From NCBI GenBank assembly GCA_026414565.1, contig JAOAIT010000057.1, positions 1 through 47,522 of the forward strand: a stretch of 47,522 nucleotides of DNA. Reading direction: 5' to 3'. Positions within the stretch are counted from its first letter, which is position 1. The number at the start of each line of letters is the position of its first letter. A program made the translations under genes and the position numbers. Below the pieces are notes generated by a model, which worked only from the letters and a program-made list of their open reading frames with translations, was not told the DNA's origin and made no database searches. This DNA is from Verrucomicrobiia bacterium (lineage in GTDB: Bacteria; Verrucomicrobiota; Verrucomicrobiia; Limisphaerales; Fontisphaeraceae). Shown here in pieces: positions 7,872 to 19,511 of this stretch.

Positions 7872-9059
7872 GTGAACGAACGCGTGTTACTCGCAGGCCC
7901 CGCCTTCGCCGGTGGCTTGGCGCTGGAAAGCGAAGACCTTGGCCCTTCAGAAGCCTGGCAGGTGCAGGTGGCCCCCTCCGGCACGGCCGCCCTGGCCGCC
8001 TTGGAGCAGGCGGCCTTTGATGCGGTGGTGGTGGATGGCGCCATCGCCGAGGTGGATCCCCGCCAGCTCCTGCGCATCGCGGCGGAGCGCCACCCGGGCA
8101 GCGAGATTTTCCTCTGCGCGGATGTCAGCCCCGACACTGCCGAAGCCCCCCCCGTGGGCGAACGCTGGCAGCTCCTGGCCAAGCCCATTTCCGCCCCCGT
8201 CCTGAGCCGGGCTTTGAAACGGGCCTTCTCCTTCCGGACCTGGCTGCCCAGCCGGGCCGCGCGGGAGCTGTTGCACAGTGTCAACATTCTCCCCAGCCCG
8301 CCGGCCACCTACCTGAAGGTGCTGCGCGCCCTGGAGTCACCGGACAGCTCGCTCGATACCATCGGCCAGATCATCGCCCAGGACCCCGCCATGACGGCCA
8401 AGCTTCTGCAACTGGCCAACAGCGCCGCCTTTGGCCTCCAGCAGCAGGTGGCCGATCCCACCACCGCCGTCATGTATCTGGGCCTCGAAACCACCAAGGC
8501 CCTCATCCTCCTGGCCCATACCTTCTCCTATTTCGAAAAATTGCGCCCCGCCGATTTCTCGCTCGAAGTGCTCTGGAATCACAGCCTCATGACCGCCCAT
8601 GCCGCCCGCCAACTGGCCCGCGCCGAAAACCTCCGCGGCGAAGCCGCCGCCCCTTATTACACCAGCGGCCTGCTGCATGACCTGGGCAAATTGATTTACG
8701 CCGCCAATGTCCCCCTCAAGTTCAGCATGGCCATCCGCATGGCCCGCGATTACCAGCAACCCCTCTGGCAGATCGAAAAAAACCTCCTCGGCGCCTCCCA
8801 TGCCGAAATGGGCGCGGCCCTGCTGGCCATTTGGGGGCTGCCCACCGAAATTGTCGAAAGCGTCGCTTTTCATCATGAACCCTCCCGCAGCGAGCGCCCC
8901 GGCTTCACCCCCGTCGCCGCCGTCCATGTGGCCAATGCCCTGGTGCACGAAGGCGGGGCCGACTCCCAAGGCCTCCCCCCGGCCGAATTAGACCTCGATT
9001 TCCTGAAGGCGCGCGGATGGGAAGCGCGGGTGGATCTCTGGCGGCGCGCCGTCACCTGA
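7872..9059 (+). CDS. HDOD domain protein with N-terminal degenerate receiver domain
   Basis: 395 residues. Residues ~1-118 look like a response-regulator receiver fold: VVVDGAI puts a candidate phospho-acceptor at D55 and LLAKPIS a lysine at K104. The acidic pair normally near residues 8-10 is absent, so phosphorylation is doubtful. Residues ~135-335 are an HDOD domain (related to HD phosphohydrolases but usually without the metal-binding HD pair), with LPSPPATYLKVLRAL, DPAMTAKLLQLANSAAF and SGLLHDLGKLIYA. An HD pair is in fact still visible in LLHDLGK. HDOD proteins act in signalling, motility, stress and cyclic-nucleotide circuits. The start is the GTG at 7872; no strong ribosome-binding site is visible. 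It leads a rightward group with a methyltransferase and a glycosyltransferase. Confidence 0.9.
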   Translation: MNERVLLAGPAFAGGLALESEDLGPSEAWQVQVAPSGTAALAALEQAAFDAVVVDGAIAEVDPRQLLRIAAERHPGSEIFLCADVSPDTAEAPPVGERWQLLAKPISAPVLSRALKRAFSFRTWLPSRAARELLHSVNILPSPPATYLKVLRALESPDSSLDTIGQIIAQDPAMTAKLLQLANSAAFGLQQQVADPTTAVMYLGLETTKALILLAHTFSYFEKLRPADFSLEVLWNHSLMTAHAARQLARAENLRGEAAAPYYTSGLLHDLGKLIYAANVPLKFSMAIRMARDYQQPLWQIEKNLLGASHAEMGAALLAIWGLPTEIVESVAFHHEPSRSERPGFTPVAAVHVANALVHEGGADSQGLPPAELDLDFLKARGWEARVDLWRRAVT

Positions 9060-12834: not shown

Positions 12835-14019
12835 TCAGGCGCCGACGCCGCCCACCGGCCCCAGAAACTCCTCCACCACCTGCCGGAATTGATTGTCGCC
12901 GGGCTTGACAATGCCCATTTCCCGCCGGGCGTTCTCCGGGGAATCGCTGGCATGGGCCGCATTGACCATGATGGTGGAGCCAAACTCGCGCCGGATCGAA
13001 CCGGGCGGCGCCTTGGAGGGATCCGTGGGGCCGAGCACGTCGCGAATCTTCGCCACCGCATTGATCCCCTCATACACCAGCGCAATGCACTTCTCCGTGC
13101 CCGGCTGATGCCGCAGGGTCACATCACACTCGCCCGGCGCGCGCCCCGCCATGAAACGAACAATCGCGTCAAACTGGCTGTCCCCGTACACCGGCCCCAG
13201 CAGCTCGCCCAACTGGGTGGTGACCTCGGGGGAAAGGTGGAATTCAAACTCCTTTTCCAGCACGGCCTTCGCCCGGCCGGCCACCATCCCCTTGAGCTTT
13301 TGGCGCAGCACCTCGCGCACCGGCCCGTAAAACTCGCACGCCTCGGCCACGCTCATCCGGTGCACCTTGATGGCCACAATGTAAAGGCCCGTGCGGCTGA
13401 AATAATCTATCATGTTCCCCGGCCGCCCCGTGGGGAAACGGAAGTTCTCCGGCTTGATGAGCACCAGCGTCTTCTCCGGCGTCTGCCCCGCCGGATATTC
13501 AATCACGTTCTCCAGCAACCCCCCGTCGCGATCCGAGTACTGGCCCCACAGGCGCAAATCCCGCACCGCAATCTCCGGCGTGGGCGCCGCCAGCACCGCC
13601 GGCTCAAAATATCGCAGCGTGCCGTCTTCGTTCAGCAGCACATCCCCATAGGTATCCCGGATGGTCTCGCCCATCGTCCGATTCGGATTGAGCGTCCCCA
13701 CCACCTGATACACCTTGCGCACCGCGTCCTCGCCCCGGAACAGCAACATCATCACCCGGCGCCGCCGCCCGCGCGGATCCGGCCCCACATGCGTCAACAG
13801 GTAATCCCGAATCCACTCCTCCACCCGGCGATCCGCCGGATTGGAGGCGCAAACCACCGTCTGCGCATAAGCCTCCACCAGCTCGCGGCTGGGGGCAAAC
13901 ATCCGCGCCGCCGCCAGCTCCAGCCCGGTGCGGGCCAGCAGCCGGGCTAAAATGCCGCCCGTGCGCGATTTATACAGAGAATAAGGTGTTATGATAACAT
14001 GAGCCAGTTGTTCAGCCAT
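12835..14019 (-). CDS. Double nucleoside-diphosphate-kinase domain protein
   Basis: 394 residues, against ~140-150 for ordinary Ndk. Two NDK-like halves are recognisable. The C-terminal half (~183-375) has the substrate lysine in VLIKPEN (K189), GPTDPSKAPPGSIRREFG, and the catalytic histidine H356 in NAAHASDSPENARREM. It carries an extra ~40-residue helical insertion after residue ~230. The N-terminal half (~5-140) keeps the fold signature TGGILARLLARTG and GTLNPNRTMGETIRDTYGD. It has IITPYS in place of the lysine strand and no NxxHxSD motif, so it is probably catalytically dead. Canonical reaction: ATP + NDP to ADP + NTP through phospho-His. The second half may still do this, with the first half structural or regulatory. 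It starts at an ATG after an AT-rich leader and is followed by a convergent ArsR gene. Confidence 0.88.
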   Translation of the reverse strand: MAEQLAHVIITPYSLYKSRTGGILARLLARTGLELAAARMFAPSRELVEAYAQTVVCASNPADRRVEEWIRDYLLTHVGPDPRGRRRRVMMLLFRGEDAVRKVYQVVGTLNPNRTMGETIRDTYGDVLLNEDGTLRYFEPAVLAAPTPEIAVRDLRLWGQYSDRDGGLLENVIEYPAGQTPEKTLVLIKPENFRFPTGRPGNMIDYFSRTGLYIVAIKVHRMSVAEACEFYGPVREVLRQKLKGMVAGRAKAVLEKEFEFHLSPEVTTQLGELLGPVYGDSQFDAIVRFMAGRAPGECDVTLRHQPGTEKCIALVYEGINAVAKIRDVLGPTDPSKAPPGSIRREFGSTIMVNAAHASDSPENARREMGIVKPGDNQFRQVVEEFLGPVGGVGA

Positions 14020-16015: not shown

Positions 16016-17398
16016 CTACGCCGGGGTCTCCACCGGTTGCAGCACCAGCTCCAACCCTTCCTGCGCCGCGTTGACCTCCACGTTTTCCCCCAGCAGTTGC
16101 ACAAAGTTGCGCCCCCATTCCACCATGCGATCCACATGCTCATCCGTATGCCGTGGATCATGGTGAAAGAGAAACACCCGCTTGACCTTGGCGCTGACGG
16201 CCAGGGCCACCACGTCATCCACGCAGCCATGCCCCCAGCCAATCCGGCTCTGGTACTCGGTGGCATCGTACTGCGAGTCAATGATCAGCACGGCCGCCCC
16301 CTGCACAAAGTCAATGATCCGCTGATCCTGCCGCCGCGCATAATCTATGGCCTCCTGCGTCACCGGCGGGCCGCTTTCCTTCACCGTGGCGTGGTACTTG
16401 AACCGCTGATACGGCTCGTTGTCCGGCAGATACGCCACCGCCCCCGCCGGCGTGTGAAGCCGGTATCCCATGCACAAACCAGGATGATTGAGGTAGGTGG
16501 CCTCGACACGCACACTGCCCACTTGAAACGTCAGGTCCCGCATCTCTTCGATGCTGATGTTGCCCGGCAGCTCCGCCAGCGAAATGGGGAAATAGGGGCT
16601 TTCCATCTGGCTGCTCAGGGTGGACTCCAGCCCCTCGCGGGCGCCCTTGTAGCCAATGATGCGCACCTGATTGCGGGAATGGTAGGCCGGCTCGAAAAAG
16701 GGAAAACCCTGAATGTGATCCCAGTGCGTGTGCGAAATTAAAATCGTCACCGCAAACGGTTTCTCCCCAAATTCCTGCATCAGGCTTGCCCCCAGCGGCG
16801 CAATGCCCGTCCCGGCATCGAGGATGATGATCTGCCCCCCGGTGCGCACCTCCACGCAGGCCGTGTTGCCGCCGTAACGCAAGGTGGACCGCCCCGGCGT
16901 GGGGATGGAGCCGCGCACCCCCCAGAACCGCACCCGCGGCGGCGCGTCCTCCGGCAGGGCGGGCGGCGGCGGCCGGGCGCTGGGCGCGCGGGGCCGGCGG
17001 GTGGCTTCGCGGCGCAAAAAGGTGGTGTCGCCTTCGCCCATCAGCTCCTTGAGGAGATTGAGGAATTCGTGGCGCTGGAGCGGTTTGACCAGGCAGGCGT
17101 CGGCCCCGGCCTGGAGCGCATTGACGCGGTCGGTGGGATAGCCCCCGCCGGTGGTGAGCACCACCCGCGTGTAATTCCGCAGCACCGCCTCCTGCCGCAC
17201 CATGCGGCAAAGTTGAAAACCGTTGCAGCGGGGCATGAGCAGATCGCACACCACCAGCTCCGCGCGATTCTTGAGGGCCAGCTCCAGCCCCGTCTCGCCA
17301 TCCTCGGCCACCAGCACCCGCCAACCGTTCTCCGCCAGCCAGCCGGAAAGGGCCGCTCGCTGGCTCTGGTCTTCGTCCACTAGAACAACGGTTTTCAT
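16016..17398 (-). CDS. Response regulator receiver / MBL-fold hydrolase fusion (copy 2)
   Basis: 460 residues. Residues 1-118 are a receiver domain with acidic pocket VDED (residues 8-10), phospho-acceptor D52 in VVCDLLMP and lysine K105 in CLVKPL. A Pro/Arg-rich linker (~125-155) leads to an MBL domain opening with VRFWGVRGSIPTPG. Metal ligands visible: H223, H225, D227 and H228 in SHTHWDHIQG; H305 in NHPG; D374 in DSQYD; and histidines at FHHDP (~412). This is the group of MBL hydrolases with GGNTACVEV and DAGTGI signatures; the substrate is unknown. The design suggests an enzyme switched by phosphorylation from an unlinked histidine kinase. The start at 17398 gives a clean receiver N-terminus. 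It has its own promoter-like element in the 53-base gap after its paralogue. Confidence 0.9.
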   Translation of the reverse strand: MKTVVLVDEDQSQRAALSGWLAENGWRVLVAEDGETGLELALKNRAELVVCDLLMPRCNGFQLCRMVRQEAVLRNYTRVVLTTGGGYPTDRVNALQAGADACLVKPLQRHEFLNLLKELMGEGDTTFLRREATRRPRAPSARPPPPALPEDAPPRVRFWGVRGSIPTPGRSTLRYGGNTACVEVRTGGQIIILDAGTGIAPLGASLMQEFGEKPFAVTILISHTHWDHIQGFPFFEPAYHSRNQVRIIGYKGAREGLESTLSSQMESPYFPISLAELPGNISIEEMRDLTFQVGSVRVEATYLNHPGLCMGYRLHTPAGAVAYLPDNEPYQRFKYHATVKESGPPVTQEAIDYARRQDQRIIDFVQGAAVLIIDSQYDATEYQSRIGWGHGCVDDVVALAVSAKVKRVFLFHHDPRHTDEHVDRMVEWGRNFVQLLGENVEVNAAQEGLELVLQPVETPA

Positions 17399-17419
17399 GC
17401 CACGGGTTGCGCGTGGGGA

Positions 17420-17447
17420 AATATAGCCTCCCCGGGCGCTCTGCCAA
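17420..17447 (-). promoter_or_regulatory. Candidate promoter for receiver-MBL copy 2
   Basis: On the minus strand TTGGCA (17447-17442) and TATATT (17425-17420) are 16 bases apart; each matches the sigma-70 consensus at 5 of 6 positions. The element lies within the 53-base gap between the paralogous genes, 21 bases before the start codon. The second copy can therefore be expressed independently of the first. Confidence 0.55.
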
Positions 17448-17451
17448 CCCT

Positions 17452-18801
17452 TCAACCGGCACGGGCCAGGGCCCGGCGGCGCGCCGCCGGGCGCAGCACC
17501 ACTTCCACCCGCTCGCGGGCGCCGGCCACTTCCAGGCCGCCGCCGGCGGCCATGGCCAGCTTGCGGGCATGCCGCACCATGGCATCCACCTTGCGGTCAT
17601 CGTGGCTGGGATCATGATGGAAAAGAAAAAGCTTCTTCACCCCGGCGCGCACCGCCAGGTTCACCGAGTCATCCACGCAGCTATGGCCCCACCCCACGTG
17701 CCGCTCGTACTCCTCCGCGTCATATTGCGAATCCACAATCAACACGTCCGAGCCGCGAATGAATTCCACCAGTTTCTGGTCCTGTTGCTCGGCAAAGGCC
17801 TGCGCCTCGGCGCTGACCGGCTGCGCCCCCGCGGAGTGCGACTTCAGCCGCACGTAGTTCTCGTTGTCCGGGATGAACGTGATCGAGCCTTCCGGCGTGT
17901 ACAACCGGTATCCCACGCAAACGCCGGGATGGTTGACATAAGTGGCCCGCACCTGAATGGGGCCGACGGAAAATTGCAGATCGCGCAGCTCGGTGAATTG
18001 CAGATTGCCCGGCATCTCCTTCAGGCCGATGGGAAAATAGGGGCTTTCCATCTGGCCGGACAGCGTGTCCTGCAAACCGCGCGTCGCCCCCTCATACCCC
18101 AGCACCCGCACGGTGTTGCGCGGATTGTAGGCCGGCACAAAAAAGGGAAAGCCCTGGATGTGATCCCAGTGGGTGTGCGTGATGAGCAACGTCAGCTCCA
18201 GCGGGCGGTCCTTGAACTCCCGCGCCAGCGCCACGCCCAGCGGGCGAATCCCCGAGCCGGCATCCAGAATGATGATCTGGCCGGCCGCGCGAATCTCCAC
18301 GCAACTGGTGTTCCCCCCATATCGCACCGTCTCCGGCCCCGGCGAGGGGATGCTGCCCCGCACCCCCCAAAACCGCAGCCGCGTGGGGGCGTCCTCCGGG
18401 ATCATATTGGCGCAGGGCTTCATCAGCATCACCGTGTCCCCCTGGGCGATGTTCTCCAGCAGCCGCTTCAGGGCCACCGGATCATACGGTTTCACCAAAA
18501 AATGCCGCGCCCCCGCCTCGCTGGCATTCTGACGGTCGGCCGGAAAATCCCGCGCACTGGTGGCCACCAACACCGTCCCATCAAAGGCCGGCGTCTGCCG
18601 CAACCGCCGGCAAAGCTGGATGCCCGCCCCTTCCGGCAACAAATAATCAAACACCACCACCCGCGGATGATGCTGCTGCGCCAGCGCCCACGCCTGCTCG
18701 GGATCCTGCGCCTCCCAAACCGTCCAACCCTCCGACGCCAGAAAATTTTTCAAGCCACGACGTGCGCTGGCGTCTTCGTCAATGAGCAGGACGGTCTTCA
18801 T
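17452..18801 (-). CDS. Response regulator receiver / MBL-fold hydrolase fusion (copy 1)
   Basis: 449 residues, a clear paralogue of the downstream gene with the same order: receiver (1-118; IDED pocket, D52 in VVFDYLLP, K104 in FLVKPY), short linker, MBL domain (~140-430). The MBL metal ligands are H209, H211, D213 and H214 in THTHWDHIQG, then NHPG, DSQYD and FHHDPSH. Long identical stretches such as QMESPYFPI and FWGVRGSIP show a local tandem duplication. The linkers and C-terminal tails differ most; this copy ends in an Ala/Arg-rich tail. The lack of a DNA-binding domain means output should be enzymatic. It reads leftward toward copy 2 and the O-antigen ligase-like gene. No histidine kinase gene is in the window. 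Confidence 0.9.
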   Translation of the reverse strand: MKTVLLIDEDASARRGLKNFLASEGWTVWEAQDPEQAWALAQQHHPRVVVFDYLLPEGAGIQLCRRLRQTPAFDGTVLVATSARDFPADRQNASEAGARHFLVKPYDPVALKRLLENIAQGDTVMLMKPCANMIPEDAPTRLRFWGVRGSIPSPGPETVRYGGNTSCVEIRAAGQIIILDAGSGIRPLGVALAREFKDRPLELTLLITHTHWDHIQGFPFFVPAYNPRNTVRVLGYEGATRGLQDTLSGQMESPYFPIGLKEMPGNLQFTELRDLQFSVGPIQVRATYVNHPGVCVGYRLYTPEGSITFIPDNENYVRLKSHSAGAQPVSAEAQAFAEQQDQKLVEFIRGSDVLIVDSQYDAEEYERHVGWGHSCVDDSVNLAVRAGVKKLFLFHHDPSHDDRKVDAMVRHARKLAMAAGGGLEVAGARERVEVVLRPAARRRALARAG

Positions 18802-19097: not shown

Positions 19098-19511
19098 ATG
19101 GGTCCTATGGGCACTGGATTGAAAGAAGCTGCACCCGCGCGGGCCGCAGCCAATGAAGAATCCCAGACGCTGCGCGATTTGTACCTGCAACAAGCCGGCA
19201 GCTCCCCCCAGAACTTTGAGCGGGATCTCCTGTTTGCCTGTGCTTATGCGCCGGCCCTGGTGCGCCTGGCGTGGCGGTTGGACCCGGATTTCTTTCTGCA
19301 CGACCTGCAGCTCATCCGCGCCGTGAGCCTGTGCCGCAACTTCGGGGACTGCCGCCATGAAGTCGAGGCCTTCCGCCGCGCCAACCCCCCGCGCGGATTC
19401 CTCCGCAAAACGCTGCGCGTCCGCCTTTCCGGGCAAAAGCTATTACGAATGGCCTCCCGGCTGTATCTGACCAAGACCCTGCCCTCCCGCAACGCCAATG
19501 CGGGACGATAA
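19098..19511 (+). CDS. Hypothetical protein
   Basis: 137 residues, not recognised. The composition is soluble and mainly helical (EESQTLRDLYLQQAG, FERDLLFACAYAPALVRLAW) with a basic C-terminal third (LRKTLRVRLSGQKLLRMASRL). It has no signal peptide or membrane segment. It is the only rightward gene inside the leftward exopolysaccharide/exosortase block, so it is independently transcribed; a promoter-like element ends 45 bases upstream. Two ATGs (19098 and 19107) are possible starts. The frame, length and non-repetitive amino-acid use support a real gene, but it has no named function and might be lineage-specific. Confidence 0.6.
   Translation: MGPMGTGLKEAAPARAAANEESQTLRDLYLQQAGSSPQNFERDLLFACAYAPALVRLAWRLDPDFFLHDLQLIRAVSLCRNFGDCRHEVEAFRRANPPRGFLRKTLRVRLSGQKLLRMASRLYLTKTLPSRNANAGR

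Follow-up and report, generated by a model that had tools for sequence, protein, structure and literature searches.

Tandem receiver-metallo-beta-lactamase proteins of a Verrucomicrobiia bacterium as candidate phosphorylation-gated phosphodiesterases

Two adjacent genes of a Verrucomicrobiia bacterium, each joining a response-regulator receiver (REC) to a metallo-beta-lactamase (MBL) domain, raise the question of what reaction such a REC-MBL protein might place under phosphorylation control, and whether it serves the exopolysaccharide (EPS) and exosortase genes around it. The pair lies on contig JAOAIT010000057.1 (assembly GCA_026414565.1), of which positions 1 to 47,522 were analyzed; this whole 47,522-nucleotide stretch is called the window. 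G labels denote genomes (G000 being the window's own and G001 a complete genome of the same genus, held in one chromosome-size contig) and L labels denote fetched loci. The reading we prefer, on which as a whole our confidence is even, is that both proteins would be receiver-gated phosphodiesterases of the YhfI/Rv1339 kind, acting on cyclic nucleotides. The minus strand of the window carries both open reading frames (ORFs), with these features:

17452..18801, minus strand: copy 1, REC-MBL protein of 449 amino acids with an ATG start (ORF; Response_reg and Lactamase_B_2 over cut-off; AlphaFold model)
18445..18801, minus strand: copy 1 receiver, residues 1-119, Asp52 codon at 18646-18648 (Pfam, alignment, model)
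17488..18387, minus strand: copy 1 MBL domain, residues 139-438, HTHWDH at 18160-18177 (Pfam, alignment, model, fold match)
16016..17398, minus strand: copy 2, REC-MBL protein of 460 amino acids (ORF; Response_reg and Lactamase_B_2 over cut-off)
17042..17398, minus strand: copy 2 receiver, residues 1-119, Asp52 codon at 17243-17245 (Pfam, alignment)
16028..16939, minus strand: copy 2 MBL domain, residues 154-457, HTHWDH at 16715-16732 (Pfam, tree, alignment)

Both domains scored over the Pfam cut-off in both copies, at 74.6 bits (copy 1) and 73.3 bits (copy 2) for Response_reg (PF00072) and at 52.3 and 56.2 bits for Lactamase_B_2 (PF12706), and the Pfam scan of the two proteins found no DNA-binding family and no family beyond these two. 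The copies share 52% identity across 455 columns. The length of copy 2 is counted from a conserved ATG, its frame staying open upstream to a TTG at 17455. In the AlphaFold model of copy 1 (mean predicted local distance difference test score 90.5, predicted template modeling score 0.78) the linker around residues 120-138 was poorly predicted. Both copies carry the sequence features of a response regulator, with an acidic pocket (D8/E9/D10), the phospho-acceptor D52, K104, and a switch position occupied by S82 in copy 1 or T in copy 2. The MBL motif residues are likewise complete in both, including the metal motif (THTHWDH in copy 1, SHTHWDH in copy 2) and the ligands of the two-metal site. A preliminary description of the window had claimed a paralogous pair, each with an intact receiver and a complete MBL domain and lacking a DNA-binding part, and this is borne out.

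Residues needed for switching and for metal binding were also conserved among homologues. Aligning 25 homologues showed Asp52, Lys104, HTHWDH, His291, Asp312, His395, and His396 to be invariant. In a wider receiver set (n=59), Asp52 was kept in 56, Lys104 in 58, and T or S at the switch position in 56, and in a wider MBL set (n=103), His209, His211, Asp213, His214, His291, and Asp312 were present in every protein and His396 in 102. The ratio of nonsynonymous to synonymous substitution rates (dN/dS) between the window and G001 was 0.145 for the receiver and 0.039 for the MBL domain of copy 1, and 0.049 and 0.028, respectively, for those of copy 2. The low values in all four domains indicate that both copies are real genes under selection; the copy 2 receiver is tightly constrained and the copy 1 receiver less so.

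The identity of the MBL domain bears most directly on what the pair might do. Both copies combine PF12706 with the [T/S]HXHXDH signature, a combination that defines the group of Rv1339, YhfI, and CpdA, the atypical class II phosphodiesterases, according to the portion of PMC9293780 available; the substrate preference of YhfI is cAMP/cGMP, according to that of PMC9117128. In a fold search with the MBL domain, RNase Z (2cbn; Z 26.4, 246 residues, 2.6 A) tied with YhfI (6kns; Z 26.1, 236 residues, 2.4 A), followed by arylsulfatase 8gyg (23.1), PNGM-1 (22.8-23.5), PhnP (21.4), and yeast PDE1 (21.2). The GYR/MR motif and the next metal Asp are spaced 13 residues apart in copy 1, as in YhfI-like 1zkp, versus approximately 63 in Bacillus subtilis RNase Z. 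REC-MBL proteins thus resemble YhfI, Rv1339, and Corynebacterium CpdA in family, signature, fold, and metal-Asp spacing, and differ from them in that those are MBL enzymes without a receiver, as described in the available parts of the same two papers.

Relatives of the MBL domain keep company with other signaling domains. Fusions of the form MBL-REC-cNMP_binding-GGDEF, in which a single chain would hold both a predicted phosphodiesterase and a diguanylate cyclase, were found in two Rokubacteria records and one Nitrospirae record (L097:9617-12271, with the receiver below the Pfam cut-off, L103:9995-12235, and L130:9998-12280), and an MBL-GAF fusion in L136. Among 125 neighboring proteins at 49 loci outside the Verrucomicrobiota clade, receivers were the commonest family (15), with HisKA (4), HATPase_c (4), and HDOD (3) also present. 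The window's genome has six matches to PF00211 (class III cyclase) and seven to PF00027 (cNMP_binding), so makers and readers of a cyclic-nucleotide messenger exist there. Among the matches listed, none of the relatives without a PF00211 match (G006, G021, and G033) had REC-MBL, a weak hint noticed post hoc. Matches were present in 855 plasmid records, of which 11 loci were inspected; a PF00211 or PF00027 gene lay within ~2.5 kb of the MBL gene in five of them, although several plasmid loci are syntenic and so not independent. These loci comprised the following:

Ensifer PDNC004 plasmid: CHASE2-cyclase gene overlapping the MBL gene
Mesorhizobium plasmid: cNMP-binding gene 6 bp from the MBL gene
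Niveispirillum plasmid: double cNMP-binding gene, divergent to the MBL gene
Phyllobacterium T1293 plasmid: PF00211 or PF00027 gene near the MBL gene (by annotation)
Rhizobium BG6 plasmid: PF00211 or PF00027 gene within ~2.5 kb of the MBL gene
L195 and L199: DUF3095 adjoining the MBL gene
L197: an ORF adjoining the MBL gene
L155: HDOD adjoining the MBL gene
L200: metallophosphoesterase adjoining the MBL gene
L196: Fer2 protein, truncated where the stretch ends, adjoining the MBL gene

We postulate that each copy acts as an orphan response regulator, its output domain being an RNase Z-like MBL phosphodiesterase with a dinuclear metal site (YhfI/Rv1339/CpdA, atypical class II). Asp52 would receive its phosphate from a histidine kinase encoded at another locus, and the phosphorylated receiver would alter the activity or the dimer state of the MBL domain. 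The MBL domain in turn would hydrolyze a small phosphodiester, which is most probably a cyclic nucleotide from one of the genome's class III cyclases. A two-component input might in this way change a second-messenger pool, much as in RegA but with an MBL catalytic domain, and the two copies probably respond to different inputs. The data establish the domain composition, the conservation of switch and metal residues, selection on both genes, the predicted fold, the distribution, and the absence of EPS and kinase linkage; that the chemistry is that of a phosphodiesterase, that its substrate is a cyclic nucleotide, which way phosphorylation turns the switch, and what each copy does are inferred.

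The combination of receiver and MBL domain is present in several phyla. Within the order, at least 24 of 39 relatives (own genome included) had a full-length REC-MBL match; in G032 the gene was cut by the contig end, G014 and G035 had the MBL part only, and the remaining 12 had, among the matches listed, only receivers or a fragment. In a sample of 194 genomes from the phylum, 32 had a match at 1e-40. A scan of named genomes, in which the best 80 of 573 confirmed relatives were analyzed, placed REC-MBL, by record title, in Verrucomicrobia, Elusimicrobia, Betaproteobacteria, Acidiferrales, Latescibacterota, Bacteroidota, Nitrospinales, Methylomirabilota, Lindowbacteria, and Parachlamydiales. 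We classed 105 MBL proteins by the position of the receiver, which stood in front in 54, behind in 7, and in a separate gene within 400 bp in 14 (one being the G013 tandem itself), leaving 30 with neither, one of them the L097 protein with its sub-threshold receiver. Carriage by mobile elements was considered and rejected, as the MBL domain had no match in the phage collection and no plasmid record covered 80% of copy 1.

The tandem is a pair of old paralogues. In the MBL tree, copy 1 of the window grouped with proteins of G001 and G002 and one of G013 (support 99/93), and copy 2 with the other proteins of G001, G002, and G013 (100/99). All four genomes, of which G013 belongs to a different family within the same order, have copy 1 followed by copy 2. 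A recent duplication is ruled out, since the copies fall in separate supported groups, each with members from the same four genomes in the same order. The G013 orthologue of copy 1 (L050:8578-9507) has no receiver, while copy 2 of G013 keeps its own; this agrees with the window's genus, where dN/dS is higher for the copy 1 receiver than for that of copy 2.

Whether the setting of the pair reveals its role was asked of the surrounding genes. In this contig the pair does sit among EPS/exosortase genes, as first described, with a Wzy-type ligase on one side and a sugar transferase-EpsI-exosortase block on the other. In G001 the pair is conserved as one 2.78-kb block at 84% DNA identity; its distance is ~826 kb from the nucleoside diphosphate kinase (NDK)-Wzy ligase block and 9.5 kb from the sugar transferase-EpsI-exosortase block. 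Of 22 genomes with REC-MBL, all matched Bac_transf (21 over cut-off) and 20 matched exosortase; one or the other was on the REC-MBL contig in three (G000 at 0.8 kb, G001 at 9.5 kb, and G022 at 27 kb), many contigs being short. EPS/exosortase genes lay within 10 kb in two of the 22, both of the window's genus, a test limited by the short contigs. A search of 100 fetched loci for the window's EPS proteins gave no hit at or above 60 bits. Among 102 neighbors of 29 REC-MBL loci in the window's order, the commonest family was the pilin-type N_methyl motif (7); no kinase recurred (HATPase_c 3), receivers numbered 2, and no EPS family was among the 25 neighbor families listed out of 183. With no recurring EPS or kinase neighbor, the pair look like orphan response regulators, and the EPS/exosortase setting is incidental. 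The earlier proposal that the pair belongs to an EPS/exosortase module is therefore not supported by the 100 loci, the 22 genomes, or G001 synteny, and the genome search it called for found the fusions widely but, as far as tested, no recurring kinase, EPS, or exosortase genes. A separate observation concerns MBL-only relatives on rhizobial plasmids (L154, L163, and L200; Mesorhizobium and Phyllobacterium), which have a polysaccharide deacetylase gene and a GT4 gene as neighbors; two of these three loci also have cyclase or cNMP-binding genes nearby.

Several results weigh against a receiver-gated cyclic-nucleotide phosphodiesterase. Profile comparison ranked RNase Z first (1.3e-16), ahead of 1zkp (5.1e-12), arylsulfatase 8gyg (9.7e-12), and YhfI (3.2e-7), and copy 1 reached only 38 bits against the NCBIfam cyclic-nucleotide phosphodiesterase model NF041851, whose cut-off is 400. 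At the 29 loci of the window's order, only 2 of the 102 neighbors were cNMP_binding proteins and PF00211 was not among the 25 families listed. No genome other than the window's own had matches covering the receiver in the phylum sample of 194, suggesting that the clade's fused form is uncommon outside the order, and the named loci were found with a receiver-containing query, which biases the receiver-bearing shares upward. Within a 54-row Verrucomicrobiota clade (34 with and 20 without a receiver) the receiver state changes at least eight times, a count that does not distinguish gain from loss, so that the MBL domain often stands without a receiver. These changes, together with the receiverless G013 orthologue and the dN/dS of 0.145 in the copy 1 receiver, would fit a receiver that serves merely for dimerization or localization, attached to an MBL enzyme that is always active. 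We regard this as very improbable, given the near-complete retention of Asp52, Lys104, and the T/S position noted above, the dN/dS of 0.049 in the copy 2 receiver, and the single-domain receiver genes that adjoin unfused MBL genes.

An alternative substrate is RNA: were the MBL domain a divergent RNase Z, with tRNA precursors or other RNA as its targets, RNA processing would come under two-component control. RNase Z (2cbn and 1y44) shares the catalytic motifs and is the top match in sequence and profile as well as joint top in fold, none of the 39 relatives' genomes (own included) has an RNase Z over the NCBIfam curated cut-off, and the best RNase Z matches of the own genome are copies 1 and 2. 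However, the cut-off is not decisive, as no more than 9 of the 14 control genomes reach it, and copy 1 itself scored 73 bits against TIGR02651 (cut-off 293). Moreover, the ~50 residues that RNase Z carries between GYR and the metal Asp, an insert we take to be the tRNA-binding arm, are missing from REC-MBL; for copy 1 and most relatives the match to the RNase Z model is split (~17-154 and 214-288), with ~155-213 left out, and copy 2 of the window and G004:C10 match the model in one spanning piece. RNase Z-like proteins seemed unevenly spread relative to REC-MBL presence, these being partial model matches that are hard to classify. The genome gave 44 tRNA matches; 30 tRNA loci were read, and all 38 of their rows (counting repeats) encode CCA, which implies that RNase Z-type maturation is not needed in this genome. 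The missing insert, the split model match, and the CCA-encoding tRNAs together weaken a role in tRNA maturation; RNase Z proper is unlikely, and we hold a receiver-gated ribonuclease of any kind to be rather unlikely. A gated hydrolase of some other substrate, such as a lactone, an aryl sulfate, a PhnP-like cyclic phosphate, or a glycan or lipid phosphate, seems unlikely too: the MBL superfamily is functionally broad and arylsulfatase 8gyg, PNGM-1, and PhnP are fold matches, but their scores fall below those of RNase Z and YhfI, and the fused and neighboring domains are signaling domains. Most improbable of these explanations is a module dedicated to EPS/exosortase control, for which the position of the pair here, the exosortase block 9.5 kb away in G001, and the polysaccharide genes beside the rhizobial relatives can be cited, but which shows no recurring link in the order and was already weakened by synteny. 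Invariant metal ligands, fold match, YhfI-like spacing, CCA-encoding tRNAs, and signaling-domain company make a cyclic-nucleotide phosphodiesterase the likeliest output. Of the original suggestion that phosphorylation switches a hydrolase acting on a signal molecule or glycan intermediate, the receiver-switched hydrolase thus stands as the best reading, with a cyclic nucleotide as its likeliest substrate.

Receivers control second-messenger enzymes in response regulators with GGDEF, EAL, or HD-GYP outputs, which differ from REC-MBL in having other catalytic folds and dinucleotide messengers; PleD was among the fold matches. The closest system in its working is RegA of Dictyostelium, in which a receiver likewise precedes a phosphodiesterase and phosphate is transferred to an aspartate, with cAMP as substrate, according to the portion of PMC11988041 available. 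By that account RegA has a class I catalytic domain and is fed by the phosphorelay protein RdeA, whereas the catalytic domain of REC-MBL is an MBL domain with no RegA-type class I domain, so that the two work alike but REC-MBL is not a member. Closest in placing MBL catalysis under a regulatory domain are GbpA and GbpB of Dictyostelium, class IIb enzymes with cGMP/cAMP as substrates, likened here by description and not by sequence; in the same portion of PMC11988041 they are regulated by two cyclic-nucleotide-binding domains, with no receiver. In its catalytic domain REC-MBL is closest to YhfI/Rv1339, although copy 1 departs from phosphodiesterases of the YhfI/Rv1339/CpdA type in its low NF041851 score. 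We class REC-MBL as a response regulator, and not as RNase Z, a member of NF041851, or an EPS component. No description of this architecture was found in the literature searched, an earlier mention in general response-regulator reviews being possible: in the parts available, PMC4364456 concerns a regulator of OmpR/PhoB type, not MBL, and PMC554113 a different fusion (DUF442-lactamase), and the main text of PMC5847659 contains neither "lactamase" nor "MBL".

The two copies are separated by 53 bp (17399-17451) between the copy 1 stop and the copy 2 ATG, where the preliminary description had placed a promoter allowing independent expression. Two further features lie next to the genes:

17420..17447, minus strand: promoter-like TTGGCA-16-TATATT ahead of copy 2 (10/12 consensus matches)
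19098..19511, plus strand: divergent small gene of 137 amino acids, without a Pfam or NCBIfam match, adjoining copy 1 and kept in G001

The promoter-like site was the best of three found over 9 kb (shuffled sequences averaged 1.5, standard deviation 1.2), and its hexamers and spacing are identical in the G001 gap; none was seen by eye in the G002 or G013 gaps. A promoter for copy 2 in the gap is plausible on this pattern, and the proposal stands in part, the site being present but seen conserved only within the genus. The gap can also be folded, on the minus strand, as a GGGGA(G/A)GC-UAUAUU-UCCCC hairpin around the -10-like hexamer, and one stem change in G001 keeps pairing. Structured RNA in the gap was rejected, with folding z-scores of -0.91 and -0.73 and an energy no better than shuffles; the Rfam scan of the window found no family at its gathering score. 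The 137-amino-acid gene, with 69% identity over 129 amino acids to a G001 homologue at the matching place (L039:10778-11164), may be part of the REC-MBL unit. Elsewhere in the window, a 394-amino-acid protein (12835-14019, minus strand) matches the NDK domain in two stretches, as if it held a long insert, and an HDOD protein (7872-9059, plus strand) has a weak receiver-like N terminus (18 bits, below cut-off). In L116 a REC-HDOD homologue is located ~2 kb from a REC-MBL gene, and HDOD genes directly precede MBL genes in L111, L114, L134, and L155.

We tentatively propose, with less than even confidence, that REC-MBL is an uncharacterized multi-phylum class of response regulators in which phosphorylation would switch an MBL cyclic-nucleotide phosphodiesterase, a bacterial counterpart of RegA built on an independent fold, the tandem possibly forming two differently tuned gates on one pool. 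The EPS setting is a poor guide for experiments on these proteins. If the proposal is true, bacteria would have a direct route by which histidine kinases control the breakdown of cyclic mononucleotides, as known from Dictyostelium RegA, and genes named just "MBL fold metallo-hydrolase" in the records examined would gain a function.

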